Positions 27,201 through 47,760 of a stretch of 47,760 bases of DNA are shown here, in pieces. The DNA comes from Thermoplasmatota archaeon (lineage in GTDB: Archaea; Thermoplasmatota; E2; DHVEG-1). Under the pieces are notes generated by a model. The model did not search any database, was not told where the DNA came from, and was given only the letters and a program-made list of their open reading frames with translations. The DNA lies in NCBI GenBank assembly GCA_016932245.1, contig JAFGDG010000049.1, positions 1-47,760 of the forward strand, in the 5' to 3' direction. The first letter of the stretch is position 1. Every line of letters begins with the position of its first letter. A program made the translations under genes and the position numbers.

Positions 27201-27748
27201 AACACGTTCATTCAAAAGAAATGGAATCGATCATGGGTTTGGTGTCTTCACGGTTAGGAACCGAATTGCAGTATGAACAGTTCGGGTTTACTCACGGCAC
27301 CAACGATATTTCAGAGGGACCAAAGCAATCTACCTACAAAACGTTAAAAACCATGATGGACAAGATGAATGCACAACTTAATCTTGCGGCAAAGATTCGG
27401 GCTGTTGACGAAGCTGATGTTGCCTACAAAGTCATCGAGCGTCACTTTTTGCCAGATATCATTGGCAATATGAGAGCATTTAGTAAACAAGCTGTTCGCT
27501 GTCCTACGTGTAATATTTCCTACCGACGACCTCCGTTGCAAGGATGTTGTACAAAATGTAATGGCAAACTCACTCTTACTGTTCATGAAAAGTCAGTAAA
27601 AAAATATTTAGAAATCTCAAAAGAGATTGCAGAACGGTACAGTATTTCTCCCTATGCACGCCAACGGATAAATTTAGTTGAGAAAAATATTGACTCACTG
27701 TTCATGAGCGACAAAGTAAAAACAACGAAATTAACTGATTTTTTCTGA
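24275..27748 (+). CDS. polC: DNA polymerase D large catalytic subunit (DP2), intein-free
   Basis: Catalytic NCDGDEDGLMLLLDALLNFS uninterrupted; zinc ribbons CKTCGKSTYRLTCGCG and CPTCN...CCTKC; 1157 aa. Confidence 0.95.
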   Translation: MGGDLSNDVSASSIMREYFMQLQENIEACYSLAGQARKKGFDPEFIVEIPQARDLADRVEQLVGPKGIAPTIREVTKKIGNRELVSLDIAKRIVNGKTYKFKTTEEALDQAIRTGLAILTEGVLVAPLEGIAEVKLGTNKDGTTYVDLYFSGPIRSAGGTGQAMSVLIADVVRRELDIGNYQPTPGEIERYKEEIPLYKRAQHLQYTPSVDEIDKIVKGCPICINGEGTEDVEVTGYRDLPRVGTNRLRGGACLVIAEGLCLKAPKILKHVKKLKLKGWEFLDSFVNKDAGKTPDGEKTTKIPTIAPSAKYIGEVIAGRPVFSHPSRKGGFRLRYGRARTAGLAATAINPMAMHILDGFIAVGTQMKTERPGKGTIATPCSQIEGPIVLLQNGDLVQINTNDKHSVYAVKQIVDLGEILIPFGEFIENNALLPDASYTYEWWIQELQQSIDCLPKEYTPQAIQQADAVLQQKLNDVLRKPINLQEVSAQEAFFLSESYNIPLHPRYNLFWHDIVALDVVALSQYIKEKGRLVDQTLQLPFDTDIKRILIDLGVLHKQRNEEFIIDHYAYPLIRCCGFDVKNTSIIETPRSKILQDVDTKMDPTSLVSSLAGVEVRKRAPFRIGTRMGRPEKAAARKMRPPPHVLFPIGNYGGNQRLLRTAAEKMEIEVEAGKRTCKTCGKSTYRLTCGCGTHTDVVFTKEKTNGTSTVKGRIEVHKINMGEELNRAKKALKERALPETIKGVIGTISKHKTPEPLEKGILRAKYDVSVFKDGTTRFDMTDSPLTHFKPKEIGVPLERLKELGYTTDYLGNLLEREGQLCELKVQDVIISRACAEYFVQVSKFIDDLLAKFYKLDRFYTIRKLEDLTGHLVVGLAPHTSAGSLARIIGFTDAQVCFAHPFYHASKRRNCDGDEDGLMLLLDALLNFSHSYIPDKRGGRMDLPLILTTRIDPSEVDKEAHNVDTLARYPLEFYRATIQHVHSKEMESIMGLVSSRLGTELQYEQFGFTHGTNDISEGPKQSTYKTLKTMMDKMNAQLNLAAKIRAVDEADVAYKVIERHFLPDIIGNMRAFSKQAVRCPTCNISYRRPPLQGCCTKCNGKLTLTVHEKSVKKYLEISKEIAERYSISPYARQRINLVEKNIDSLFMSDKVKTTKLTDFF

Positions 27749-27815
27749 TTTTGTAGGAGCATAACCTTCAAATAGCAATTCTATTATGTAGTGTGTACTA
27801 AAAGGAGTTAATAGC

Positions 27816-28073
27816 ATGGCGAGTGATATGTTACAACAAATGAGTAAAAAAACATGGTATCGTTGGTCATTTTACATCAACATTGTGTTATTCTTCATTA
27901 TTGCGTTGTGCATCTATTTATTGGTAATTGATTGTCTTAGTTTACATCTCTCCGCAGATCCTTATGCATGGTTGTACATTACACGAGACTTAGCATTTCT
28001 TTCCATCGCACTCGCGTTAATTTTCTTTCAATTCTTCAGAAATTTACTGCTTATTATGCGACGAGCACTATAA
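27816..28073 (+). CDS. Small 2-TM protein, unknown
   Basis: 85 aa, two hydrophobic helices; AAAGGAGT SD. Confidence 0.65.
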   Translation: MASDMLQQMSKKTWYRWSFYINIVLFFIIALCIYLLVIDCLSLHLSADPYAWLYITRDLAFLSIALALIFFQFFRNLLLIMRRAL

Positions 28074-28089
28074 TGACAACGCAATGGCG

Positions 28090-28410
28090 AAAGGTGTAGA
28101 ATAGACTGGGGAGGTAGGCGTTCCCTGTAACCAGAAATCGCCTTCATGCTGGGGTCGAAACCAAGAGGCGATGTAACGAGCGTTTATTGATCCGTTTGTT
28201 GACGATGAGACCCTGTCCTCTGGGATCAGAGGTGGTGCTACATATGACCGGAGGGCCATATGTACATCTTCGTTGCGGGAACCGGGCGAGGCACGGAAGT
28301 GAGCAGCCTTACCGTAAACTGCTGATGCTCAAAGGGTCAACGGGGTCGAGAAGGCAGATGGGTAGTCAATGAACGACCCGTGCACCCACTCGCGACCTTC
28401 TACACCCGCT
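28090..28410 (+). ncRNA. ffs: Archaeal SRP (7S) RNA
   Basis: Terminal stem ggtgtagaa (28093-28101) / ttctacacc (28398-28406); Alu-domain ctgtaacc...; helix 6 acatatg..ccggaggg..catatgt; helix 8 ggcacGGAAgtgaGCAGCC with an AC/GT pair next to the GGAA loop. Confidence 0.92.
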
Positions 28411-28468
28411 AAAATTATTTAACCTAGATTTGCATTTCACCTTTTTACCGATAGTTGGGGGAATTCAT

Positions 28469-30577
28469 ATGGTACGATTGCTAAAAGATGAGAGTGTAGT
28501 CGCGCAATGGAAGAACTTCTTTGAAGATGTCTGCCGATCAGAAATTGAAACTGTTGCTGTATCTTATCCAGAGAAGCGAAGTCTTTTTGTCAATTATTGG
28601 GATATTGATAAGTACGATACAAAGCTTGCTGAGCTTCTTATCCACCAACCATATAAAGCCATTTTTAATGCTGAGGAAGCACTGAAACAAGTTGATGCGA
28701 CAGCAGAACGTAAATTGGCACTTCACCTTCGGGTCAACAACCTACCCGAACCTCAGAAAATTGTTATTCGTAAAATACGAGCAAGTCATTTAGGAAAATT
28801 GACAGCGATAGAAGGCTTGGTCAAGAAACGAACGGAAGTACGACCAAAGCTACAGGTTGCTGCATTTCAATGTCAAAAATGCGGAGCAATCATAAAAATT
28901 GAACAAGAGGAAGATATTCTCAAGGAACCCTCTGAATGTTACGAGGACCAGGGAGGGTGTGGCCGTGTTTCGTCTTTTAAGTTACTATCAAACCTATCGA
29001 GCTTTATTGATTCACAAAAAATAGAGATTCAGGAAAATCCCGAAGGTCTTCGGGGGGGAGCCCAACCAGAGCGAATTAGCGTCTTTCTGGAAGATGACTT
29101 GGTTGGAGAAATTGCACCGGGCGATCGAGTAATTGCCAATGGTATCTTGCATTCCGCACAACGACGAAGAGGCACCTTTCGCTTAACATCTTTTGATAAA
29201 GCCCTCGAAGCAATTAGCATTGAAAGTCAGGAACTTGCCTTTGAGGAGGTCGAAGTTACTGAAGAGGATGAACAAGAAATTATCAAGATAAGTAACGACC
29301 CTCGTATCTACGAAAAAATGATGCGAAGCATCTCTCCAACGATTTATGGTATGGAGGTGGAGAAAGAAGCACTGGTCTTACAATTATTCGGCGGTCTTGC
29401 AAAGAAAATGCCTGATGGAACATATATTCGAGGCGACATTCATACCCTTTTGGTGGGTGATCCCGGTACAGCAAAGTCACAAATGCTTACGTATATGTCA
29501 AAATTAGCGCCTCGAAGTATTTACGCCTCTGGAAAAGCTACGTCAGCAGCAGGTCTTACTGCTGCAGCAGTGAGAGATGAATTTGGGGAGGGGCAATGGA
29601 CCCTTGAGGCAGGTGCCTTAGTACTTGCTGATATGGGCGTTGCCTGTATTGATGAGATAGACAAGATGGAGGAGACCGATCGAAGTTCCATGCACCAGGC
29701 GATGGAACAACAAGAAATTTCTGTTGCAAAAGCAGGAATTAATGCCACCCTTAAATCACGCTGCGCAATACTCGCCGCGGCAAACCCCAAGCTGGGACGG
29801 TTTGATGAGTTTATGCCCATCCATGAGCAGATTAATATGCCTCCTGCACTTCTCTCTCGTTTCGATCTTATTTTTTCCATTCTTGATAAACCAAACAAAG
29901 CACGGGATACCGATCTTGCGACTCATGTGCTTCGTACTCATAAGGCGGGCGAAGTGAGTGAGAATATTGCCCATTCAAAAAAGACAAAACATACTAAAAA
30001 AGAACAGGAAGGATTGGTCGAGAACATCATGCCGGTATTTCCGCCAGATTTCCTCAGGAAATACATAGCCTATGCAAAACGAAGTATTTTTCCCGTATTG
30101 AATAATGATGCCTTGGAGGTATTGAAAAACTATTACGTCGATTTTAGAAGTAGTTCTGAAGACTCGGTTCCCTTCACTCCGAGACAATTGGAGGCCTTTG
30201 TTCGACTTTCAGAAGCAAGTGCACGAGTGCGACTCAGTGAAGAGGTGACGGTCACTGATGCAAAACGAGCAATCGGCATTATCGACCAATATCTGCGCCG
30301 GGTAGGAATGGATAGAGAGACCGGTAAGTTTGACATTGATATTATTGCAACAGGCATCAGCCACAGTCAGCATGAGCGTATGCGATCATTAATGGATATC
30401 ATTCAGAAAATCTGCAATGAATCTAAAGATGGCAACGCTGCTCGAGGAGATATTGTCCAAGAAGCTGAAATCGAAGGCCTTGAATCAAGTAAAGTTGAAG
30501 AAGCATTAGACCGACTCAAAAGAAACGGACAGATTTACGAGCCGGTTCATGGGAAATACCGGATTACTAACCGCTAA
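28469..30577 (+). CDS. mcm: Replicative minichromosome maintenance helicase MCM, intein-free
   Basis: GDPGTAKSQ Walker A; CIDEIDKM; zinc motif CQKCGA..CYEDQGGCG; SRFDLIF arginine finger. Confidence 0.95.
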   Translation: MVRLLKDESVVAQWKNFFEDVCRSEIETVAVSYPEKRSLFVNYWDIDKYDTKLAELLIHQPYKAIFNAEEALKQVDATAERKLALHLRVNNLPEPQKIVIRKIRASHLGKLTAIEGLVKKRTEVRPKLQVAAFQCQKCGAIIKIEQEEDILKEPSECYEDQGGCGRVSSFKLLSNLSSFIDSQKIEIQENPEGLRGGAQPERISVFLEDDLVGEIAPGDRVIANGILHSAQRRRGTFRLTSFDKALEAISIESQELAFEEVEVTEEDEQEIIKISNDPRIYEKMMRSISPTIYGMEVEKEALVLQLFGGLAKKMPDGTYIRGDIHTLLVGDPGTAKSQMLTYMSKLAPRSIYASGKATSAAGLTAAAVRDEFGEGQWTLEAGALVLADMGVACIDEIDKMEETDRSSMHQAMEQQEISVAKAGINATLKSRCAILAAANPKLGRFDEFMPIHEQINMPPALLSRFDLIFSILDKPNKARDTDLATHVLRTHKAGEVSENIAHSKKTKHTKKEQEGLVENIMPVFPPDFLRKYIAYAKRSIFPVLNNDALEVLKNYYVDFRSSSEDSVPFTPRQLEAFVRLSEASARVRLSEEVTVTDAKRAIGIIDQYLRRVGMDRETGKFDIDIIATGISHSQHERMRSLMDIIQKICNESKDGNAARGDIVQEAEIEGLESSKVEEALDRLKRNGQIYEPVHGKYRITNR

Positions 30578-34413: not shown

Positions 34414-34794
34414 TTACTTTTTCGCACTCAGCACTTTGTCAACTCGCCGTTTCAAATCTTCAGGATCATAGGGCTTTTCGATATAGTCTTCTCCCAGAAA
34501 GCTACCGGCATTTTCTGCCGTTCGATCGACACGTGCCGTTAAAAAGACGATGGGAATTTTTTCCCATGACGGATTTTCCTTTATCTTATTATAGGTTTCC
34601 CATCCGCTCATCTCCGGCATCATAATATCGAGTAAGATGAGATCGGGAATTTGTTTTTCTTGCAGGAGCTCTAAGCATCGCTTGCCGCTCTCCGCTCGGA
34701 TGACTTCATACTCTTCGTTAAATTTTTTAAGATTAAATTCAACTGCAAAGATAACATCAGGTTCATCATCGACAACCATGATCTTTTTTTTCAA
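34414..34794 (-). CDS. Single-domain response regulator
   Basis: Receiver domain KIMVVDDEPDV, LILLDIMMPEMSG, VFLTA, EKPYDPEDL; no output domain. Confidence 0.9.
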   Translation of the reverse strand: MKKKIMVVDDEPDVIFAVEFNLKKFNEEYEVIRAESGKRCLELLQEKQIPDLILLDIMMPEMSGWETYNKIKENPSWEKIPIVFLTARVDRTAENAGSFLGEDYIEKPYDPEDLKRRVDKVLSAKK

Positions 34795-34867
34795 TCTTTT
34801 TCACCCCTCTTTTTATGTATCGCTCAATAATTTAATTAATTTTCTTATATTTATCAATCTCTTATTT

Positions 34868-35251
34868 TTATGCGCGGCTTTTCGTTAAAATTTTCTGTAA
34901 TCTGTCCCTCAACTCTGTCGGATCGTATGGTTTTTCGATATACTCCTCACCGAGATGGGTGGTATGCTCTCCAGAAAACTCATCAACTTTTGCAGTGAGA
35001 AACACTACGGGAATGCCCTTCCACGAAGGATTTTCTCTGATTTTTTCATACGTCTCTTCGCCACTCATCCCTGGCATCATAATGTCAAGTAAGATGAGAT
35101 CTGGCGATTCCCCATTCTTTAAAAGTTCTAAGCATTGCTCTCCACTACTTACTCTGGTAATTTCGTAGTCTTTGTCAAACATTTTAAGATTGAGTTCGAT
35201 AGTATATGTTACGTCAGGCTCATCATCGACTACCATAATTTTCTTCTTCAT
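34868..35251 (-). CDS. Single-domain response regulator (paralogue)
   Basis: Receiver domain near-parallel to the ORF at 34414; start at MKKKIMVVDD (35251). Confidence 0.9.
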   Translation of the reverse strand: MKKKIMVVDDEPDVTYTIELNLKMFDKDYEITRVSSGEQCLELLKNGESPDLILLDIMMPGMSGEETYEKIRENPSWKGIPVVFLTAKVDEFSGEHTTHLGEEYIEKPYDPTELRDRLQKILTKSRA

Positions 35252-35255
35252 TACA

Positions 35256-37142
35256 TCACCTCTTTTTTTGATTATATGGTAATGAGAACTTAAACATCGT
35301 TCCCTTATTGAGTCCCGGGCTTTCTGCCCAAATTTTCCCTCCATGTTTTTCAACAATACGTTTACAAATCGATAGTCCCAATCCACTTGATTCTAGATCA
35401 TGTCTTGCAGGGTCAACCTTGTAAAATTCTTCAAAGACATGGTCAATTTGCTGCTGTGTCATACCAATACCTGTATCTTTTACTGATATGATTACCTTTC
35501 CCTTCTCTTTTACTGCATCAATGGTCACGTTACCTCCCTTTGATGTAAATTTTGCGGCATTTGTTAAAAGATTGTCAAAGACTTCACTGAGTTGAAGCTT
35601 ATCTCCTTCTACAACTAGACGTTTGTTGATATTGTTATTAACAGAAATTTCCGCTTCTTTAAAAATCAACTGCTTGGTATCAATGATAAAATCTACTAGT
35701 TCTACTACGTCCACTTCTTCAATATTAAATACGGTGTTTGGTGAATTCAAACGCTCAAGTTGCAATGTTTTTACAACAAGATCGCGCATATATTTCACAT
35801 TACGAATGCTGACTCTAATAAGTTCTTTTAACTTCGGATCCGTTTCCTCTTCTTCTACCATGGGAAGTAATCCAATGAGCGGTGTTAATGGGCTTTTGAG
35901 ATCATGACCAAGTTGGGCAATAAAATCATCCTTATGTTTGAGTAATGTTTCTATTTTAGCTGTCCTCTCTTCTACTTTTTGTTCAAGTTCTTTGTTAAGG
36001 TCCCGAAGTTCATCCCGCGTTGCAGTTAGCATTTCATTTGCCATTCTTAGATGTTCAGCACCACTACGTCTCTCTTCTTCTACCTTCTTATGATCAGTGA
36101 TGTCTCTTAGTGATATAACATGACCTGTAAAACTATCATGGCTGCCATACAAGGGGTTTATTTTCATATCGAAATAACGCTTCTCCCCGTTAGTATCTAC
36201 GAAAATTTCAACTTGAGCTTCTTTCTTATCTTGAATATATCCAACAATATCATACTGATTAGAGAATACCTCTTCAACTTTTTTCCCTATTGGCCCCGAA
36301 CCATCATAATCAAAGATTTTTAATGCAACAGGATTAATATCAACAATTCGATCCTGAGCATCCAATACAAATACCGGATCGCTCATATTTTCAAAGACAA
36401 TATCTCTAGCTATTGGTATCGTCTCAATCAGCTTTAATTTGGAGAATCCCCAAACATAGACTACGCAAGTTATAACAAAAAAGATAGGGGTTATATCTAG
36501 ATTGTACAGAATTGGAATCAAATATATGTTATAGAGTATATTTGCTACCCACGGTGCTAGAGTCCCGGCTAATAAAACAACGACCTGTTTACGATAGATG
36601 CGTCTTAAATTGATCAATTCTTTCATCAGAATAAAAACACCTATCAGGATTAGGAAATAGCAATAAAGTGTAAAGAGCCACCAAAGTCCACTATAGCCAT
36701 AATCTATTAATATAATCGACCCATGCGAAAAAAAATCCACTCTAGTAAAAATCAGATGATGCAATTCATCAGTAAAAATAAGAAACAAAAACAGTAATGG
36801 AACGATGTATATGAGAGAAATTTTCTTAGCAGTCAGCCATTTATCCTTGCCCGTCCATTGTAACGCAAAAATAAGCCAAGTAGGACAAAGTAGTATTGTT
36901 CCTATGTACAAAAATTGTTCTATAAAAAATTTATAAGAAAAATCTGAAGTTATAAATCCCAAAGCAAAACCAAACATCCATAAAATCATTAATGACATTA
37001 AAAAAATGAGATATCTAGCGGGATGCAGGCGTCTCTCCAACCAGTATTTTCGCCAGACGTAGAAAGCCAATGCTAACATCAAGCAACCGGATATACTGGA
37101 TATAACCATCAATATGAGGTATATTTCATGTAGCTCTAGCAT
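35256..37142 (-). CDS. Sensor histidine kinase: N-terminal 7TM, PAS, HisKA, HATPase
   Basis: Seven hydrophobic helices; PAS FVLDAQDRIVDINP; H-box AQLGHDLKSPLTPLIG; DNLLTNAAKF; DTGIGM; SSGLGLSICKRIVEKHGGKIW. Confidence 0.92.
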   Translation of the reverse strand: MLELHEIYLILMVISSISGCLMLALAFYVWRKYWLERRLHPARYLIFLMSLMILWMFGFALGFITSDFSYKFFIEQFLYIGTILLCPTWLIFALQWTGKDKWLTAKKISLIYIVPLLFLFLIFTDELHHLIFTRVDFFSHGSIILIDYGYSGLWWLFTLYCYFLILIGVFILMKELINLRRIYRKQVVVLLAGTLAPWVANILYNIYLIPILYNLDITPIFFVITCVVYVWGFSKLKLIETIPIARDIVFENMSDPVFVLDAQDRIVDINPVALKIFDYDGSGPIGKKVEEVFSNQYDIVGYIQDKKEAQVEIFVDTNGEKRYFDMKINPLYGSHDSFTGHVISLRDITDHKKVEEERRSGAEHLRMANEMLTATRDELRDLNKELEQKVEERTAKIETLLKHKDDFIAQLGHDLKSPLTPLIGLLPMVEEEETDPKLKELIRVSIRNVKYMRDLVVKTLQLERLNSPNTVFNIEEVDVVELVDFIIDTKQLIFKEAEISVNNNINKRLVVEGDKLQLSEVFDNLLTNAAKFTSKGGNVTIDAVKEKGKVIISVKDTGIGMTQQQIDHVFEEFYKVDPARHDLESSGLGLSICKRIVEKHGGKIWAESPGLNKGTMFKFSLPYNQKKR

Positions 37143-37344: not shown

Positions 37345-38454
37345 TCAAGAGGATGAAGTGTAGGTTCGTATACTATTTTCATCAATGGTGAGTGATTTTG
37401 ATTCCAAGACTTCAAAATTTTCAATCGTCACAAACGGAACTAAATTGACTGTTACCCCACTACCATATCTTACGCGGGGACCTGAAAGGGAAACATTTAA
37501 TGATTCGTTACTCCCATCATCAATAAATAATCGAAGATGCCCTGCGCTTTCAATGGCAAAATTTTGATAAATTTGCACATCACTGCACTGCGAAGGACAG
37601 GCACATTCGACGGAAATCCATCCATCATGTCCTAGACTTCCTCCAACAAATACTTCGGCCCATGCATGGGAAACGGCAGTGGCAATGCCGTTTGTCTCTT
37701 CAATGAGATATCCTCTGATGAACCGCGCAGGAATTCCGATGGATCTACAGAGTGAGATGTATAAAAAGGACAGATCATCACAATCTCCTGTTTTTAATAA
37801 AAAGGTAGTGCGTGCAGGTTGTACACTACTATCTTCAGGATGAGTTTGATAGGCCGTCTGTTCTTTTAACCACCTAAATAAGGCTTTAGCAAGGAGAAAC
37901 GTGTTGTTGGTTCCTATTTCTCCTGCTATTCCCTTGGCAGTTGAAAGAACCAACGGATCATCTGGATCAATGTAGGTACTATTTTGAACCTGTTGTCTAT
38001 GACAATACTGGTTGCACAATGTAGCATATGCTGTAGATATTTCTTGCAGGGTTGCTGCATTATTTCCGTTTAAATCTGAAACGAGAGATGCTTCCGCATT
38101 TGCACTTGCTTCTATACCAAGTTCATATGTTGCTGCGTTGTTACCTGAGATGTTCCAAGAGATGAAGTCGTTACTAACCTTTGTCACTTCAGTATAATCA
38201 TAGCGATATAATACTTCAAAAGGAGAGAGCGTTCCACTTAACAGCGAGGGGAGATCACAATCATACGTTATCTCATACTGTCCTGCCCCTTCGCAGGTGA
38301 CTGAATATCCATATTGAGCGTCGTATCTAATGCTTGTAGGATGTGCTTCATAGGTTATTGTGTTGTCCATAAAAGAAAACTCCAAGCATCCTGATGTTAC
38401 AATAAAGAAAGAAAAAATGAGAACCCCCATTCCGATGATTGCCTTTTTGTTCAT
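37345..38454 (-). CDS. Lipoprotein with transglutaminase-like domain
   Basis: Lipobox IVTSGCLEF; catalytic TGDCDDLSFLYISLCRSIGIPARFIRGY ... HAWAEVFV. Confidence 0.85.
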   Translation of the reverse strand: MNKKAIIGMGVLIFSFFIVTSGCLEFSFMDNTITYEAHPTSIRYDAQYGYSVTCEGAGQYEITYDCDLPSLLSGTLSPFEVLYRYDYTEVTKVSNDFISWNISGNNAATYELGIEASANAEASLVSDLNGNNAATLQEISTAYATLCNQYCHRQQVQNSTYIDPDDPLVLSTAKGIAGEIGTNNTFLLAKALFRWLKEQTAYQTHPEDSSVQPARTTFLLKTGDCDDLSFLYISLCRSIGIPARFIRGYLIEETNGIATAVSHAWAEVFVGGSLGHDGWISVECACPSQCSDVQIYQNFAIESAGHLRLFIDDGSNESLNVSLSGPRVRYGSGVTVNLVPFVTIENFEVLESKSLTIDENSIRTYTSSS

Positions 38455-38462
38455 ATGTTCTG

Positions 38463-40301
38463 TTACTTTTTTCTAAACAGTCCGCCCTTTTTTCCTTGTG
38501 TTACATAGTATTGGCACCCTTGACTCATCGGACATTTTGAACATGTCGGGTCTTTTTCATGGCAAAAGGTTCTTCCCAGTTTTGCCAGTGATTCTAGATA
38601 TTTGTAGACGTTTTCCTTCATTTTTTCCGCTTCTTTTGATAATATCTGGATCGTTTCTTCAGGGTCATCAGTGGAAACCCATCCAAGTCTCTTTGCCACT
38701 CGATTGACGTTCTTTGCCTTATCCGTAAATGCCTCTTCTTTTTTTGGTGGCGGAGAGGGGGAGGACGATCTCTGCACCTGAGGTGGTGGTGGCATCTTAG
38801 GAATTTTTGGTGTATAGGTGGTATCAGTGCCTCCTTTAAAGATGTCTACGGAGCGTCCACCATGGCTCGTTTCTCTTGTACGAATTTCCGTCATGATGGG
38901 AATTTGAAGCGAGGCACCAGAAATCAGAGCAACGCCTATGGCAAGGCGCTGGATCTCATCATACGTTTGGCTGGTGAGTCCTTCTACAGATTGAATGATG
39001 GCCTTCAAGTCATTGGGGTTTGTAACTTTAAGAATGATGTTGGTGTTACACTGAGAGATAATATTTTTATCCACTTTTGCAGGACGCTGACTTACGATGC
39101 AGAGCCCCATACCAAATTTTCTTCCCTCCGAGGCAACCGTTCGTAGGATATTTGAGGATACGGCATTACCAAACCCTCGTTCCGGACAATAGTTGTGCGC
39201 TTCTTCAACGATAAGTAAGAAGGGTGGAATTTTTCCTGATTTCCGCTGATCGAACAATTCTTTAGTAAGTCGAGCTACTACCACATCTTGTACATCGGGC
39301 GGTACCCCTTTCATATTAATGATTGAACATTTGCCCTTTTTCACCAGCTCATCCGGGGAGGTACCTTCTTCTGAGAATACCCCAATCGAATCAAGCGATT
39401 CAAGCGATGCGATAACATTCCATCGCGCGTTGCTTTTACTTCTGTTAACCGCTTCAATGATATCTCTGATAGTATAGGTGCTTTTGTATTCCTTCAACTC
39501 TTTTATTGCTTGGTAAAGCACGCCAATTTGAGGACCAGAAAGCTTTGCAGAGAGAATATCAATAATCTCCCGGGCTTCGAGATTGACACCATTCAGCGTA
39601 ATATGTTTTACATTTGCCTTTGAGTGTGGCGAGTATTCTGTAATTTGACTGCTGTAATGGTTCTGCTTGACGTTGAATTTTTGCATGTTTTTTTGTTCTT
39701 TTTTATCTTTGTTGGGCTTTGTCAAAGAAATGTATTCTCCATGCGTATCGATAACGACCATAGGTACCTTTTTCTTGAGTAGTTCCTCAACAAGAACTCC
39801 ACAGGCGTAGCTTTTGCCGCCACCCGTCTTGGCAAGAATACAGATATGCTTTTGAACAAGTGCGTCAATGTTCAGGAACACAGGGAGACTATGTCCTTTG
39901 AGAAGGCCAATATAGGCGCCACTCTCTTTGTTAGCATTGAGGCCCAACACGTGTCTGATTAAACCTTCATCAGCACGTATAATTCTGCCGCCAGTGTTAA
40001 ATGGCGTTCGAGGAACTTGCAGCACCCCTCGTTTGTCTCGATAGCCTATGACACCAGCAAATGCGGAAACATCACTTTTAACATGAGGCGTTTCCTCTTG
40101 GTATTTCTGAGTGATTGCATCCTCAAATTTTAAATCAGAATATCGTTTAATATCCATGACTTGTGCTAAAATATAGCCTTCCTTATGAGGCGCGGAAATA
40201 TAATCAAATTTTCGTACACTCTGGCCATTGACTGCGAAGTTAAACTCCGTTGATCCTATGTCTCCGTATATTACGCCAACAAATTCGTCTTTCTGTTGCA
40301 T
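38463..40301 (-). CDS. herA: HerA-family ATPase/translocase with C-terminal Cys4 motif
   Basis: AKTGGGKSYACGVLVEELL; FLLIVEEAHNYCPE; SEGRKFGMGLCIVSQRPAKVD; C-terminal CHEKDPTCSKCPMSQGC. Start at MQQKDEFVG. Confidence 0.87.
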   Translation of the reverse strand: MQQKDEFVGVIYGDIGSTEFNFAVNGQSVRKFDYISAPHKEGYILAQVMDIKRYSDLKFEDAITQKYQEETPHVKSDVSAFAGVIGYRDKRGVLQVPRTPFNTGGRIIRADEGLIRHVLGLNANKESGAYIGLLKGHSLPVFLNIDALVQKHICILAKTGGGKSYACGVLVEELLKKKVPMVVIDTHGEYISLTKPNKDKKEQKNMQKFNVKQNHYSSQITEYSPHSKANVKHITLNGVNLEAREIIDILSAKLSGPQIGVLYQAIKELKEYKSTYTIRDIIEAVNRSKSNARWNVIASLESLDSIGVFSEEGTSPDELVKKGKCSIINMKGVPPDVQDVVVARLTKELFDQRKSGKIPPFLLIVEEAHNYCPERGFGNAVSSNILRTVASEGRKFGMGLCIVSQRPAKVDKNIISQCNTNIILKVTNPNDLKAIIQSVEGLTSQTYDEIQRLAIGVALISGASLQIPIMTEIRTRETSHGGRSVDIFKGGTDTTYTPKIPKMPPPPQVQRSSSPSPPPKKEEAFTDKAKNVNRVAKRLGWVSTDDPEETIQILSKEAEKMKENVYKYLESLAKLGRTFCHEKDPTCSKCPMSQGCQYYVTQGKKGGLFRKK

Positions 40302-40329
40302 CCAAACCGATAATAAAGAGAAGGTGTAA

Positions 40330-41139
40330 TTATAGTTTTTGTAATTTTTTCCCCATTTTTTTAGGAAGATTTGCAAGTGTCATTAGTGCCTCGATTTCCA
40401 AAAAATGAAGCTTGCCAGGAACCACCAGGGTATGGAGTGGCGGTCCGAACTCATTGCCCACTAGGGCAGTGATGCGGTCGGCAGCAAGTACCGGTTTAGA
40501 TGACCCTGCACGACCTACCACACATATGGCTGTGTCGGGAGTAATAATGTTTTTTCTTTCTTTTTCTTCCATCTCCAACAAAAGCTTCATTCCTTCGTTA
40601 GCAGTCATATACTGTTCTTTTTCTGTTTGGATGTCCAGAAGAATAAGTGTGTGTAACCCCATGTTTTTATTGTCAGCAATAACATGGTAAGGGCTGGTCG
40701 GGAAATACTGCTTTTCAGGATAGGCAATTGTTGTTGTCCGTCCAAACTTATAATTTTGTAATCCTAAAAGACCAGGCACAGCAGTTGCAATACTACTTCC
40801 ATGGATGACCCTTGTTGGTATGCCCTGTTGTTCGGCCCGTAGTCGTAAATCGACATGTGTTGTTGCCGTCATAGGGTCTCCACAGACCAGCAATGCTACC
40901 TTATTGTTTGTAGCGGTGTTTAGAATCACATCTCCTTTTTCGGTTTCTGTCCTTGATAACACGTGTATTGATTTTCCCATGTTGTGTTCTAACTTAGTAA
41001 TGGTTGTGCCACTTAATTTTGCCGTATAAAATTCAGCAAAGACAGTATCACACAATTTAAGGATTTCAAACCCTTTGAGTGAAATGTCCTGTTCATCATA
41101 GAGACCAAGACCAATAAATACTAAGCTACCTGTTTCCAT
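40330..41139 (-). CDS. dphB: Diphthine synthase
   Basis: FIGLGLYDEQDISLKGFEILKLCDTVFAEFYTA; VCGDPMTATTHVDL; HGSSIATAVPGLLGLQNYKFGR. Confidence 0.92.
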   Translation of the reverse strand: METGSLVFIGLGLYDEQDISLKGFEILKLCDTVFAEFYTAKLSGTTITKLEHNMGKSIHVLSRTETEKGDVILNTATNNKVALLVCGDPMTATTHVDLRLRAEQQGIPTRVIHGSSIATAVPGLLGLQNYKFGRTTTIAYPEKQYFPTSPYHVIADNKNMGLHTLILLDIQTEKEQYMTANEGMKLLLEMEEKERKNIITPDTAICVVGRAGSSKPVLAADRITALVGNEFGPPLHTLVVPGKLHFLEIEALMTLANLPKKMGKKLQKL

Positions 41140-41234: not shown

Positions 41235-42185
41235 ATGCTCTCTATTGAACTATCCATCCCTGCATTTATTGCTGGCGTTGCTCTCCTTTACAAAGGATCG
41301 GACATTCTTGTCGATGGAACTTCAAAAACTGCAGCGCGATTAGGGGTCTCCACCCTTATTATCTCACTTGTTATTGTCGCTTTTGGCACGTCAGCACCAG
41401 AATTCGCTATTTCTGTTGGAGCTGCAGTACAACACAACGCGGGCATTTCGCTAGGAAACATTATCGGATCTTGTATTGCTAATCTACTGTTAGTCATTGG
41501 ACTCAGTGCAATTATCCGTCCTATTCGTGTCAATAAAAGCATCATCAAGCGAGAGATGCCCATCTTGTTGATAGTAACGGTGATGTTTCTAGTGGTCACT
41601 CTCCTCGGCCTTCTTGACACCTTTCATTTCATAGGTAGCGCTATCTTTCTTGTTTCATTTGCTCTCTTTATTGCCTATTTTATTCGATGCGCAAAAAAAG
41701 AACGTACCACAAAAAATACTTACAACGATGGAAAAACTATCAAAAATACACTTTTCGTTATTTTCGGCATCCTTGGTGTTGTTATTGGAGCATGGTTACT
41801 TATTGAATCAGCAACCTGCATCGCTGATTTTTTCGGCATCCCAGCAATTATTATTGCGCTTTCGATGGTTGCAATTGGCACTTCTCTTCCAGAACTTGTG
41901 GTCTCTGCCATGGCTGCCTACAAAGAAGAGTCAGATATTGCAGTAGGAAACGTTCTGGGATCAAATGTGTTTAATATCTTACTTATTTTGGGCGTTGGTA
42001 CTCTTTTTATCCCTCTTGATGCCCTTGGATCGCTTGATCATATTGTTTTTCTTTTAGCGGTTACTATTTTTATGATTCCCATTCTCTTTTCAGGCCATAA
42101 CATTTCGAGGGTTGAAGGGGGCGTACTTCTAGCATTATATGTCATATATATTGTGTACACTTTTCGATTCATGCTTTTTTTGTAA
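41235..42185 (+). CDS. CaCA-family Na+/Ca2+ exchanger-like protein
   Basis: Alpha repeats FGTSAPEFAISV...GNIIGSCIANLLLVIG and AIGTSLPELVVS...GNVLGSNVFNILLILG. Confidence 0.92.
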   Translation: MLSIELSIPAFIAGVALLYKGSDILVDGTSKTAARLGVSTLIISLVIVAFGTSAPEFAISVGAAVQHNAGISLGNIIGSCIANLLLVIGLSAIIRPIRVNKSIIKREMPILLIVTVMFLVVTLLGLLDTFHFIGSAIFLVSFALFIAYFIRCAKKERTTKNTYNDGKTIKNTLFVIFGILGVVIGAWLLIESATCIADFFGIPAIIIALSMVAIGTSLPELVVSAMAAYKEESDIAVGNVLGSNVFNILLILGVGTLFIPLDALGSLDHIVFLLAVTIFMIPILFSGHNISRVEGGVLLALYVIYIVYTFRFMLFL

Positions 42186-42232
42186 TACACCATCAAACTC
42201 TATAAATAGGATTTAGGTGTTCCAGGATTTCA

Positions 42233-43162
42233 ATGGATCGCGATACAAACAAACAGAGTAGTGACATACTTCCTATTGCCGTTATGGGGTGTTTATTTGT
42301 TGTTATCCATGTTCTTGCGCTACTGGTAATTGGCCCTTTTGAAGCAGCTGGCGTAGAGCCCGCTTTTGAAAACCCTGATGATCCTATGAATCTTGTCTAT
42401 TTCTTCGTCATCATTCTGGCCATGACTGCAATTATTCTTGTCATTGCAAAATATTGGAAAAAACAAGTCATTCAAGCCATTATTCTTGGGGCAATAGGGT
42501 ATACATCATGGTACGTCTTTTACCCTCTTTTAACACTTCTCATTCCCGACCTTTTTGCGTTGGTCTTTGCCGTGATATTTGCACTCCTGCTTATTGTCAC
42601 TCTCTATAAATTTCCAGAATGGTATGTCATTGATATCAGCGGTGTTATTGTAGGCGCTGGCGCTATTGCTATCTTTGGCATCTCTTTAGGTGTTCTCCTC
42701 GTTGTTATTTTGTTAATAGGTCTTGCTATCTATGATGCCATATCAGTCTATAAAACCAAACATATGATTGATCTCGCTGATACGGTCATGGATTTGAAAC
42801 TACCCGTACTTTTGGTCGTTCCCAAAAGACGACATTATTCTCTTATCAAGGAGACAAAACGATTGAAAGAACAACTCAAAGAAGGCGAAGAGCGTGATGC
42901 CTTTTTCATGGGATTGGGTGATATTGTGATGCCTGGTATTTTGGTTGCTGCTGTGTATTATACGGGAACACCGCACACCCTCGCTATCGCATTATCGGTA
43001 ATAGTAGGCACCTTAGTTGGTTTTAGTATGTTAATGACGTTTGTTATAAAAGGAAAACCACAGGCAGGACTTCCCTTGCTCTGTGGCGGTGCTATTGGTG
43101 GTTACCTTATCTCGAGCTATCTATTTGCAGGTGAATTGGTCGGTTTAATATTACCTTTCTAA
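42233..43162 (+). CDS. Presenilin/SPP-like intramembrane aspartyl protease
   Basis: Catalytic motifs YD (LAIYDAISVYKTKHM) and GLGD (FFMGLGDIVMPGIL) plus C-terminal QAGLPLL in place of PAL. Confidence 0.87.
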   Translation: MDRDTNKQSSDILPIAVMGCLFVVIHVLALLVIGPFEAAGVEPAFENPDDPMNLVYFFVIILAMTAIILVIAKYWKKQVIQAIILGAIGYTSWYVFYPLLTLLIPDLFALVFAVIFALLLIVTLYKFPEWYVIDISGVIVGAGAIAIFGISLGVLLVVILLIGLAIYDAISVYKTKHMIDLADTVMDLKLPVLLVVPKRRHYSLIKETKRLKEQLKEGEERDAFFMGLGDIVMPGILVAAVYYTGTPHTLAIALSVIVGTLVGFSMLMTFVIKGKPQAGLPLLCGGAIGGYLISSYLFAGELVGLILPF

Positions 43163-43167
43163 CAGAA

Positions 43168-44139
43168 TTAATACGTGGTTTTATGCCCGCAGTGCTCGCA
43201 CCAAATCTTTCTGTCAAAATGATTGAGCGGATTCTTACATTTCGGGCATACGGTCTTTTCAAGAAAATGCTCAATCCAAATGTCACGGTTTTGCGGGATG
43301 GTTTCTGCTTCAATTTTCTTCAGCATTTGCTGAAGCTCAGGGGTTGTTGCCAGTTTTTGAAGAGATGAAAAATCAATCTTTTTCCCTTGGTGAGGGGCAA
43401 ATGAATCGTAGTATATGGTTTGTCCTTGTGTTGTGTGCGTCTTTCTTTTTCTCAGTAAAAGAGCGGCAAGGATAAACCCGCCAATTAATCCCCCAAGATG
43501 AGCAAAATGAGCAGTGGTGTCTTCAACGCCAACATAAACAATAATTGTTTCAAATGCTGCAAAAAGAATCACCGCATAAATGACCTTTATTCTCATGATT
43601 AACATGATGCCAATCGGCACAGGCATCACTACCTCATCTCTTGGGTAGGAGAAAGCAAACGCTCCCATAATCCCAAAAATGGCGCCTGACGCACCAATTA
43701 ATACCGTTACCGATCCTAAATTGACGAGCGAATGAGTAAGTGTGCCACATATCCCCGCAAGAAGATAAATTATAATAAAGTTCTTCCACCCAACACGCTG
43801 CTCAAATGCCGTACCAATAAAAAAGAAGATGAACATATTCCCAAAGAGATGAAGGAATCCTCCATGAATAAACATCGATGTGAAGAGTGTATAGAGCTGA
43901 GGGATCTGTTCGACAGACAGATATCCTGGCCGAAATCCAAGATCTACCACGAGCATACTTATGTTTCCAAATGGCGTCTGGTATTGGAAGAGTAAGGTCA
44001 AAATAAAGACGATAACATTTGCAATAATCAGGGCATAGGCCATCATCCATTTTTTCAAGTAGGCAACAACAAGTGTTCCCGCCATAATAACAATAGCAAT
44101 GACCGATATTGGTTCTATAGGGATAACTGTCAACTCCAT
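43168..44139 (-). CDS. Rhomboid protease with C-terminal zinc ribbon
   Basis: GASGAIFGIMGAFA; HFAHLGGLIGGFILA; CPKCKNPLNHFDRKIWCEHCGH. Confidence 0.9.
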   Translation of the reverse strand: MELTVIPIEPISVIAIVIMAGTLVVAYLKKWMMAYALIIANVIVFILTLLFQYQTPFGNISMLVVDLGFRPGYLSVEQIPQLYTLFTSMFIHGGFLHLFGNMFIFFFIGTAFEQRVGWKNFIIIYLLAGICGTLTHSLVNLGSVTVLIGASGAIFGIMGAFAFSYPRDEVVMPVPIGIMLIMRIKVIYAVILFAAFETIIVYVGVEDTTAHFAHLGGLIGGFILAALLLRKRKTHTTQGQTIYYDSFAPHQGKKIDFSSLQKLATTPELQQMLKKIEAETIPQNRDIWIEHFLEKTVCPKCKNPLNHFDRKIWCEHCGHKTTY

Positions 44140-47100
44140 TGTCGTTTTCTCCAGTCACGTGCAATGATTGCAAAAGTCATAGTAAATAGCATGGTAATAT
44201 AAATAGTGTTTTTCTGACTTTCTACCGTCAACGTGGTAATTGGAGGGTCTCGTTCAGTAAGATGCCAGTCATAATAAAATACCTCTGCATAGTACTGAGC
44301 AACTTCCTCATGTTCAATAATAATCCCTGCTTCTCTATTTCTGGTCACAGAATTTTCGTTCCAATTGATGCTCGAAATCAACACAGAGCGATTATCAACA
44401 ATCATGCCTTTATTATGAACATTAGTGAAGTATGACCAATTAGTATAGAGAAACTTCACGCTAATATTATGCTGTTCAAGATGCTGCTTTGTCTGATTGC
44501 ATTTGTCATTAGAGGCCTCATAATACGGATTATAGTTCAGTATAACGTTAATCTGAACTCCTTCGTTTGCTTTTTTGATTAACCGTTCAACAAAAGGACT
44601 GATGCGCGCTCCCCACTCCTTGTACACATATAATTGCTCAATTAAGATACTTTCATTTGCGCTTTCTATCAGATTACAAATCGCCTCGAGACTGGTATCG
44701 GGGGAAAAGACAGGTGTGACAGAAAAAGAACCTGTTACTGTTTTTGAGACAAACTGCGGCTCATAGGAACCAGTAAAAATCGTCTTATCTACAAAAAACT
44801 CAACAGGAATGTCGATAGGCATATCTTTTAATGCATAACTGTCGCATCGGGCGGGATTCCAATCATCCAAAAAGACGGAGAGAAAATAGCGAGCGACACT
44901 TTCATTTCTGACGATAATGCCCCATTCTCTATTTCCAAATGAAGGATTTGGCGGTATGCCTGTTTTTGCCCAATTACAGCTTTCGACAATCACGGTTTCA
45001 TTATCAATAACAAGATATTTTCCATGATCGAAGGTGTAGCGAGCATAGACGTTTTTTTCCGCATCATTGACAATGAACCGGATTTTACCGCCGTATTGTG
45101 CAATTCGTTCCAAGAGTACAAACTCTCTATCAGATATGCCACTAATGGGAGATCCTTCAAGAAAGATATGGACAGCAACACCTCTTTTGAGTGCGTTAAT
45201 GAGTTCGTCACAAAGAAACGGATGCGTAAATTCATAGATATTAAAATAAATTGATTGCTGTGCATTTCGAATTTCATTAACAAGAGCATCATAACTACAA
45301 TCCGGTGATACAAACGTTGTTATTTCCCCATAACAAGAAAGACGTGTATAGGGAAACATCGATTGTCCTATTTGATAGCGTCGAGCATTCTCCCAATCCC
45401 TTGAGGTATTGGTATCGATTGGTGTTCCGCTCCAATCAGTATTACGTTTGAGTATAACACCCCTCCCGGAAGATAGAATGGACGGTCCATTCCATCCTTC
45501 TCCAGTATAGAGTGAATTCCCGTAAACAACAAGATCTATCGTATGATTGTACCAATCCTTGAGAGCCACTTCACCGCCAGTGTTACTTAGTGTAACGGTC
45601 TTGGTAACATTCATCTGAGGAATGCTTTCATCCGCATCAACTGCATATTCAAAATCTGCTGTTTCTCCTGTTTGCCACAAGTAGTCACTTGCATTTTGTG
45701 TAATATAGAGCCAGGTTTTTGATGGTAAATAAGTGTCCTTGGGGAAGATGAGTTTTGGTTGGCTTCCTTGTTGTTTTGCTGGCCGATGAGTAAGATACCA
45801 TCCTGTTAGGTTAATGCTATCGTTGGTTGGGTTATAGAGAGCGACAAATTCATTTTTTATGTTTGGATACGTATGATAATACAGCTCGCCAATTATCAGT
45901 TTCCTGCTTTGTGGTGGTGGAAGTGAATCAAAGATAATAATCGGTACCATCAATTCGTTGTTGTCTTTATTGAGTTCATCATGGAAGTTATCTTCTTCTG
46001 CGACCACGTAAATAGTGTGCTCACCGGCTGAAATACCTTTCGTATCCCACACTACCGAAGGATATTTCTGATAGGTTTCAATACTATCATATCCCTTTGT
46101 TCCAATCAGATGATTATCATCCTTTTTATCATAATAAAAAGAAACCGTGGCGTTTGTGGCGTTTTCGTTACCAACATTTTTACAAAATGCTTTTATCCGT
46201 AGCATTTCGCCCTCACTGAAACTGGTCCGTTGTTCACCTTCAGAATCATAGAACTTTACGGTAGTCACATTGAGATCTGGTCCGAGGAGTTCAAAAGAAA
46301 GCGTTAGTTCATCACGTTCTCCCGGGTCTGTTACCGAGGTGGCAGAAAGAGAGACCGTTCCATATCTTTCGTTAGTACTTGAACGATGGGATACATGTAA
46401 ACAAATCTTTCTTTCCTCTTGTGGGTCTAACGAAAGAGAATGAGGTAGAAGATCAACAATCCATCCTGGCGAACTATCATTGATAGCCATCGTAACGACA
46501 TCAGAAAAATCACCGGTGTTTTTGACAGAAACAAAAACATCAAGCTCTGCATGCTTTTTCATAAGGTGGTGTGCGTTAGGTGCATGCATGTCAAGAGCAT
46601 ATCTCCCCTGTCGTATCGTGACGTTCTCTATGGTTTGGAATGTTGTTCCGGTGTTATCAAAAAACTCCAATGTGTACCCGTTTCCGACAGGTCCGGTGAT
46701 GCGATAATATCCCGGTGATGAACAAAATCCCTCCTCTATCTGATTATCCTCAGTTGCATATATGCCTGCATATGCACCTGCATATGCTGCTGTGTTATTT
46801 TTCAAAACAATATGGGTGTTGTCAAGTGTTGTTAGATTAAACGTAGCAACGCCAACAACGTACCCTCCCGCTGTGCCATTGGATGAGGAATCATCAAGAT
46901 CAAGTAACAAAACCTGTTGAGAATGAGAATAGGTGATGTTTTCTGTTTTTACTTTTAACCAAAGATATGCAGTTGTATTTTTCCTAATGGCGCGCTGGTA
47001 TTCTTTGTAGTTGCTGTTGAATCGGAGATATACCCAATCTGACCAGTTCCCCTGCGAATCCGTTGTTATGGTCGAAGTGTAATAATTTGAATATTTCCAA

Positions 47101-47760
47101 GATTCACCGTTCCATGTCTGGGTTGCTGGTAGAGTGCTTGTGCTGCTGCCTGTCACATATGCTTTGAGTTGGTAGGTGGTATTCGGACCGCCATTGGTTA
47201 TTTCTGCACATACCCCAAAGGGAAAACTGAACGATGACACATTGTATACTTTTGGAAGATAACAGGGATATTGCGTCATGTTTATTTTCGGTTTTTGGGT
47301 AAACACGTTTTCTAATCCAGGAGTGGGAGTATATTGTTCAAAGAAATCAGAAAGAGTGTTGTCGGTATCTCTGCCGTGATGTCTTGCCAATGAGTGGCCT
47401 TCGATAACTACCAACGCAGGTGATCCAGGAACCTCAGTATAGTTGTATCCCCATTCCATAGCATCAATAATTGCTCCTGTTGCATTTTTTAGTATCAATT
47501 TGTCTGCGTTATTACTTAACCCGTTACCAATGCTTGCATCATCGACATAGAGCCGCGTCACATTAGCAGGAATGGAAAAATTCCCATCTATCTGTGTTCC
47601 ATGATCGGCAATAATTGCATATCCTTTAGAGGGTATGATGGTGGTGCCGTTTCCGTGGTCAAAATCCCCTTCAAGATAATCTTCAGCAGTATTATCAGCA
47701 ATGCTCCAACCAGAAAGGTTAATGGAATAGTTGGTGGGATTGTAAAGTTCGATCCATTCA
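44130..47760 (-). CDS. Large surface protein: lamin-tail domains, CARDB-like domains, two phospholipase D (HKD) domains, C-terminal TM; truncated by right edge
   Basis: Frame stays open to the edge (EWIELYNPTNYSINLSGWSI... upstream of the listed start). HGKYLVIDNETVIVESCNW and HNKGMIVDNRSVLISSINW; second LTD NEFVALYNPTNDSINLTGWYLTH; C-terminal TM then RKRQWS. Confidence 0.87.
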   Translation of the reverse strand, partial: EWIELYNPTNYSINLSGWSIADNTAEDYLEGDFDHGNGTTIIPSKGYAIIADHGTQIDGNFSIPANVTRLYVDDASIGNGLSNNADKLILKNATGAIIDAMEWGYNYTEVPGSPALVVIEGHSLARHHGRDTDNTLSDFFEQYTPTPGLENVFTQKPKINMTQYPCYLPKVYNVSSFSFPFGVCAEITNGGPNTTYQLKAYVTGSSTSTLPATQTWNGESWKYSNYYTSTITTDSQGNWSDWVYLRFNSNYKEYQRAIRKNTTAYLWLKVKTENITYSHSQQVLLLDLDDSSSNGTAGGYVVGVATFNLTTLDNTHIVLKNNTAAYAGAYAGIYATEDNQIEEGFCSSPGYYRITGPVGNGYTLEFFDNTGTTFQTIENVTIRQGRYALDMHAPNAHHLMKKHAELDVFVSVKNTGDFSDVVTMAINDSSPGWIVDLLPHSLSLDPQEERKICLHVSHRSSTNERYGTVSLSATSVTDPGERDELTLSFELLGPDLNVTTVKFYDSEGEQRTSFSEGEMLRIKAFCKNVGNENATNATVSFYYDKKDDNHLIGTKGYDSIETYQKYPSVVWDTKGISAGEHTIYVVAEEDNFHDELNKDNNELMVPIIIFDSLPPPQSRKLIIGELYYHTYPNIKNEFVALYNPTNDSINLTGWYLTHRPAKQQGSQPKLIFPKDTYLPSKTWLYITQNASDYLWQTGETADFEYAVDADESIPQMNVTKTVTLSNTGGEVALKDWYNHTIDLVVYGNSLYTGEGWNGPSILSSGRGVILKRNTDWSGTPIDTNTSRDWENARRYQIGQSMFPYTRLSCYGEITTFVSPDCSYDALVNEIRNAQQSIYFNIYEFTHPFLCDELINALKRGVAVHIFLEGSPISGISDREFVLLERIAQYGGKIRFIVNDAEKNVYARYTFDHGKYLVIDNETVIVESCNWAKTGIPPNPSFGNREWGIIVRNESVARYFLSVFLDDWNPARCDSYALKDMPIDIPVEFFVDKTIFTGSYEPQFVSKTVTGSFSVTPVFSPDTSLEAICNLIESANESILIEQLYVYKEWGARISPFVERLIKKANEGVQINVILNYNPYYEASNDKCNQTKQHLEQHNISVKFLYTNWSYFTNVHNKGMIVDNRSVLISSINWNENSVTRNREAGIIIEHEEVAQYYAEVFYYDWHLTERDPPITTLTVESQKNTIYITMLFTMTFAIIARDWRKRQWS

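Follow-up and report, generated by a model that had tools for sequence, protein, structure and literature searches.

Several DNA motors and nucleases carry an accessory [4Fe-4S] domain, among them XPD/FancJ/DinG, AddB, Dna2, and Cas4. Their clusters are built into folds of the SF2 helicase or RecB-nuclease type and have no relation to the EndoIII subdomain; to our knowledge, none of these enzymes is an FtsK/HerA pump. Why the glycosylases of the EndoIII/MutY type keep their own [4Fe-4S] cluster is an old question. Here, we analyzed a stretch of 47,760 nucleotides from a Thermoplasmatota genome (the window), in which one gene encodes a HerA-type ATPase that ends in an EndoIII-type Fe-S domain. 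As far as our searches show, this would be the first HerA/FtsK-family pump with such a domain. No description of this architecture was found in the literature, of which our search covered a part, and an earlier mention in an FtsK-HerA comparative-genomics survey is possible. Both parts are known; as far as the literature search shows, their combination and its strict conservation are new.

Gene model and domain architecture

An earlier note on the window, made from the sequence alone, had assigned 637 residues to this protein, which corresponds to an open reading frame starting at a TTG codon (38463-40376, minus strand; TTG at 40376). That start is probably not used. Relatives align from a conserved ATG at 40301, which gives 612 residues and leaves no overlap with the dphB-like gene upstream (Table 1). 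The last 33 residues, CHEKDPTCSKCPMSQGCQYYVTQGKKGGLFRKK, correspond together with the stop codon to minus-strand positions 38463-38564 and have the Cys spacing that the note had described (C-X6-C-X2-C-X5-C). A chance motif was ruled out, given that only 4 of 200,000 shuffles of the protein, which has 10 Cys, contained it and that the Cys are conserved in relatives.

The protein has the features of the HerA/FtsK superfamily, namely, a DUF87 motor with Walker A and Walker B motifs and a sub-threshold HAS barrel. The HAS-barrel-like region is beta-rich in the structural model and matched HerA structures in Foldseek. The motor extends to about position 38856 and includes a Walker B-like IVEEAH, an SQRPAK motif, and a closing SHGG; sequence comparison indicates that its motifs are intact, and its best Foldseek match is Sulfolobus HerA (4d2i; E value of 4.7e-36). 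The cut-offs of the canonical HerA equivalogs are missed (150 versus 970 bits for NF040819 and 134 versus 800 bits for NF040937). By analogy with its HerA relatives, the ATPase would form a hexameric ring that pumps dsDNA. The sole other DUF87 protein of the host above the cut-off is a divergent ATPase of 425 aa. In the full-length model, the tail forms a separate, confidently predicted domain (residues 527-602), which a disordered linker joins to the motor; the length and sequence of this linker vary among relatives.

Table 1. Features of the tailed HerA-like gene and its flanking genes in the window
Feature	Position	Strand	Basis or remark
HerA-type ATPase with C-terminal EndoIII-type Fe-S domain	38463..40301	-	Alignment with relatives, profiles
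HAS-barrel-like N-terminal domain	40062..40280	-	PF09378, E 1.4e-4, just under cut-off
HerA/DUF87 RecA-like motor	39258..39914	-	PF01935, E 2.7e-39; Walker A AKTGGGKS; invariant columns
Disordered Pro/Ser-rich linker, residues 483-523 of 612	38733..38855	-	pLDDT <50
EndoIII/MutY-type Fe-S subdomain, helices and Cys4 loop	38490..38723	-	Profiles, phmmer, Foldseek, hhalign
Putative [4Fe-4S] cluster loop, C-X6-C-X2-C-X5-C	38514..38564	-	Cys4 and Pro invariant in 33/33 orthologues
C-terminal basic motif GGLFRKK	38466..38486	-	Resembles the ends of tailless HerA-like relatives
TP_methylase family (diphthine-synthase-like, dphB-like)	40330..41139	-	Upstream; in 27/36 tailed loci
Transglutaminase-core protein, lipoprotein-like N-terminus	37345..38454	-	Downstream; in 29/36 tailed loci

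The tail and the EndoIII Fe-S subdomain

NCBIfam profiles for mutY (E value of 6.9e-8) and nth (6.5e-5) matched residues 555-626, and a phmmer search of the PDB with the last 92 residues retrieved EndoIII (9nzd; 2.7e-9) together with ROS1 and MutY. The phmmer alignment runs from the helix bearing the catalytic Asp in EndoIII through the Cys4 loop, and the profile search is concordant. When 33 tails were compared with 24 archaeal EndoIII-type proteins by an HMM-HMM search (hhalign), the EndoIII assignment of the earlier note was borne out, with a score of 99%, an E value of 6.6e-18, and 37% identity over 75 columns; three column-shuffled controls scored about 0%. AlphaFold2, run without templates, modelled the tail at a pLDDT of 90.8, and the top 50 Foldseek matches of this model were all EndoIII, MutY, NTHL1, ROS1, or TDG structures, with probabilities mostly between 0.8 and 1.0. 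Their E values of 0.02-0.9 (best, 0.019 at a probability of 1.00) are modest because the domain is small. Sequence comparisons and models together indicate that the likeness to EndoIII is homology and not convergence.

The homology reaches back about 50 residues from the first Cys (NVNRVAKRLGWVSTDDPEET...); thus, the module, a domain of about 80 residues, comprises the entire Fe-S subdomain of the EndoIII C terminus rather than the loop alone. The proposal that a HerA ATPase carries an EndoIII-type Fe-S module without the catalytic half of the glycosylase therefore stands, except that the earlier note had confined the module to the loop, whereas the helices came too. With PF10576 (EndIII_4Fe-2S), which covers the 17 positions of the Cys4 loop, the tail does not rise above the cut-off, and a search of the host genome returned only one stand-alone EndoIII. 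Since this very short profile misses the tail and longer profiles match it clearly, routine annotation would overlook the domain.

Identity to the host tail falls as low as 23% among the 33 orthologues. Nevertheless, as the earlier note had anticipated, the four Cys are invariant, and so are the loop Pro (P61), the Pro of the CP pair, V11, R14, and G16; R10 is kept in all but one. Two tails of family f2 have C-X5-C at the start of the loop and retain the four Cys (L045, 3370-3609; L047, 2227-2469). According to our alignment, R10, R14, and P61 correspond to R241, R245, and P295 of human MUTYH. In that enzyme, the substitutions R245H/C, P295L, C290W, and C306W lead to loss of the cluster, R241 hydrogen-bonds toward the cluster ligand Cys290 and contacts the DNA backbone, and N238 and D236 serve catalysis (PMC12000561). 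The tail position of Asp236 (the Asp of VDTHV) is Ala in 29 of the 33 sequences, Thr in two, and Asp in two that lack the VDTHV context, and that of Asn238 is variable. The six-helix barrel, the HhH (LPGVGxKTA), and the catalytic Lys are absent, as the tail is preceded by the disordered linker and then the HerA motor. A full glycosylase hidden in the longer linkers of some lineages (G043, G045, G047, and G051) was also rejected, as these linkers are Pro/Ala/Glu-rich, of low complexity, and without an HhH.

This pattern, in which cluster-side residues are kept and catalytic residues are lost, points to selection on the cluster domain and not on glycosylase activity; judging from the alignment, the tail is a catalytically dead EndoIII-type domain. 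From the fold, the Cys4 motif, and the MUTYH-equivalent Arg and Pro residues, we infer that it binds a [4Fe-4S] cluster. Its surface charge differs from that of the parent family. The X6 loop has a mean charge of -1.3 in the tails versus +1.3 in archaeal EndoIIIs (Mann-Whitney p of 1e-9, a value that overstates independence because the sequences are related), and the domain has a net charge of +0.3 versus +3.0. Beyond the last Cys, the sequence is strongly basic, at +5.8 on average.

Distribution, origin, and gene neighborhood

Across 293 genomes of the phylum, tailed HerA proteins scored 80-146 bits, and the next matches were stand-alone EndoIIIs of about 210-270 aa, at 60 bits or less. The tailed form occurs in 53 of these genomes, belonging to seven families, and in none of the others. 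Full-length tailed orthologues (62-77% identity) are present in almost all genomes from the family and order of the host; the three f1 genomes without a match are only 65-74% complete. Four more families of the class carry the tail with longer linkers (in G043, G045, G047, and G051). The named tailed relatives are uncultured Thermoplasmata, such as SM1-50 and SG8-52-3, and a pattern scan of IMG/VR found no viral carrier. Among the best 80 relatives, the HerA-like proteins of Methanobacteriota and other Thermoplasmatota lack the Fe-S domain and end in a short linker, often with a basic motif; no archaeal orthologue that we compared outside the tailed branch has the fusion.

In a tree built from the motor only, 14 tailed proteins form one clade (support, 89/91) together with L036, a protein whose sequence is cut by the end of its contig. 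The simplest reading of this single clade is that the fusion is ancient and goes back to one event in the ancestor of a single Thermoplasmata branch, followed by vertical inheritance. The host assembly is fragmented (161 contigs; 88.7% complete) and has 5.4% contamination, which could raise the suspicion that herA was joined to part of nth by an assembly or gene-fusion artefact. This explanation can be practically dismissed, however, since the fusion recurs in the 53 genomes and seven families, single-contig assemblies included; moreover, the linkers differ from lineage to lineage and the tails form a subfamily of their own.

In 4 of about 51 loci with tailless HerA-like genes, an EndoIII gene lies 2-5 kb downstream on the same strand (L087, 10307-11071; L114, 3832-4983; L119, 12017-12970; and L128, 11805-12479). 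Such proximity, in these four Thermoplasmatota-type loci, is a possible route to fusion, although other tailless relatives are closer. In a record labelled Proteobacteria, one HerA-like protein on a long branch (L084, 4741-6720) has no Fe-S tail but another kind of C-terminal extension, which is apparently helical.

No repair gene was found among the conserved neighbors of tailed HerA (Table 1), and these neighbors give no functional clue. Elsewhere in the window, genes for the PolD large subunit DP2 and then MCM occupy 24275-30577 on the plus strand, about 8 kb from the HerA-like gene. Between ribosomal/EF-2 genes and the transglutaminase-like gene lie genes for a 7TM-PAS histidine kinase and then two receiver proteins of the response-regulator type (34414-37142). 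At 41235-47561, a protein of 1143 aa that combines CARDB, lamin-tail (LTD), and PLD domains adjoins a rhomboid protein, with a presenilin-type signal peptide peptidase and a Na/Ca exchanger nearby.

Tailless HerA-like genes are often followed directly by a DUF357 gene (L087, L097, L100, L108, L128, and others), which encodes a protein of about 100-120 aa (PF04010 E value of 2.8e-27 for L100). DUF357 also follows two tailed genes (L032 and L034). This arrangement is probably the older one, and the DUF357 protein is a candidate functional partner of the HerA-like subfamily. Tailed and tailless proteins also share a short basic/hydrophobic end motif (GLFRKK, LFRKIFGG, GLFSRFGRQ, or SLYRKMFGSRKK), seen in the window (Table 1) and at L037-L039, L089, L095, and L122; it is possibly a partner-binding peptide.

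NurA (PF09376) had no match in the host genome at its 88.7% completeness, nor in the genomes of families f1-f4, f6, and f8 except for G020, a 65% complete genome in which NurA is present and a tailed HerA gene was not detected. Nearly all tailed lineages are therefore without a NurA match. Most genomes of the tailless families f7 and f10 have NurA, and G051 (f9) has NurA and the tailed HerA together. As the tail arose once and G051 has both, loss of NurA is only suggestive as the cause of the fusion. The host has an mre11-rad50 pair with no nurA or herA beside it, which was recognized with AAA_23 and by reading the locus; the Rad50 zinc-hook profile matched just 3 of 14 controls and is uninformative for this genome.

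Possible roles and comparison with known systems

We favor, with a probability of about 0.6, the view that the protein is a HerA-family dsDNA translocase whose dead EndoIII [4Fe-4S] domain serves as a tethered docking/sensing module. An ancestral gain would have supplied the translocase with the [4Fe-4S] subdomain from the C terminus of an EndoIII-type glycosylase. Each subunit of the ring would then bear one cluster domain off the C terminus of the motor, on a disordered leash of about 40 (up to about 160) residues, and a domain on such a long leash fits recruitment or sampling. The non-catalytic tail may recruit a partner or touch DNA close to the motor, and its cluster may be a structural element or a switch that responds to redox state or iron. 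Because of the acidic loop, docking to a protein is somewhat likelier than EndoIII-style contact with the DNA backbone; this preference draws on charge, and the basic stretch after the last Cys could bind nucleic acid. The Deinococcus enzyme binds NurA through its N-terminal HAS barrel; this barrel makes up the putative exit, and a helix bundle the putative entrance (PMC9960219). The tails would depart from the C-terminal end of the motor, from which they might reach the entry side.

The three roles that we consider for the tail are not exclusive, and docking/sensing ranks above gripping of DNA, which ranks above redox switching. The earlier note had called the tail a DNA-binding module. In that case, the Fe-S subdomain, together with the basic extension at the C terminus, would grip the duplex near the motor and raise processivity or sense lesions ahead of the pump. 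The parent domain does bind DNA, R10 occupies the position of the backbone-contacting R241 of MUTYH (PMC12000561) in 32 of 33 tails, and the region after the last Cys carries +5.8 on average. Against this stand the acidic X6 loop, which argues against an EndoIII-like backbone contact by the loop itself, and the near-neutral net charge of the domain. The tail also lacks the HhH, from which most sequence-independent DNA contacts of EndoIII come. We regard DNA gripping as a tentative second possibility. It is unlikely, though still conceivable, that the cluster acts chiefly as a redox/oxygen or iron switch whose oxidation or loss unfolds the tail and toggles the ATPase or the recruitment of a partner. 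Cluster residues are the most constrained of the tail and the catalytic ones are lost, as a switch would have it, yet the EndoIII cluster itself is usually regarded as structurally stable.

A zinc knuckle in place of the cluster is very improbable. Cys4 sites accept either metal in vitro, and the first spacing is X5 in the two f2 sequences mentioned above, but the fold and the sequence context are those of [4Fe-4S] glycosylases. The top 50 Foldseek matches contain no Zn ribbon, which led us to reject that fold, in agreement with the structural expectation of the earlier note. Damage sensing or end resection, which the note had also raised, finds little encouragement in a genome without a NurA match and a locus without conserved repair neighbors. 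A broader version of that idea, that after loss of HerA-NurA a second HerA-type pump with a dead EndoIII cluster domain took over DNA end processing or lesion handling, and that the domain gives the ring its sensor or recruitment arm, seems doubtful to us. If true, it would describe an Fe-S-regulated dsDNA pump, a kind so far undescribed.

In this protein, the EndoIII Fe-S subdomain appears as a portable unit, moved off the glycosylase and stripped of catalysis, with its cluster residues invariant across several archaeal families. As a natural construct with a cluster and without an active site, it would allow structural, DNA-binding, and redox roles to be separated from catalysis.

The tail shares with EndoIII/MutY the C-terminal helices and the C-X6-C-X2-C-X5-C loop, colinear over about 75 residues, and the cluster-retaining Arg and Pro. 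It differs in that the six-helix barrel, the HhH, and both catalytic residues (Lys and Asp) are missing, in the reversed charge of its loop, and in its fusion to a motor ATPase. With canonical HerA (NF040819; Sulfolobus 4d2i and the Thermococcus HerA-NurA complex 9x1m), the protein has in common the HAS-barrel-like domain and the DUF87 motor with the same Walker motifs, whereas it scores 150 versus 970 bits, lies outside a nurA/mre11/rad50 operon, and has gained a linker and an Fe-S tail. The tailless archaeal HerA-like proteins, for example those of Methanoperedens, Archaeoglobi, Methanomassiliicoccales, and Aciduliprofundum (L083-L131), belong to the same motor subfamily (43-53% identity) and end in a similar basic/hydrophobic motif; in contrast to the tailed protein, they have no Fe-S domain and often have a DUF357 gene next to them.
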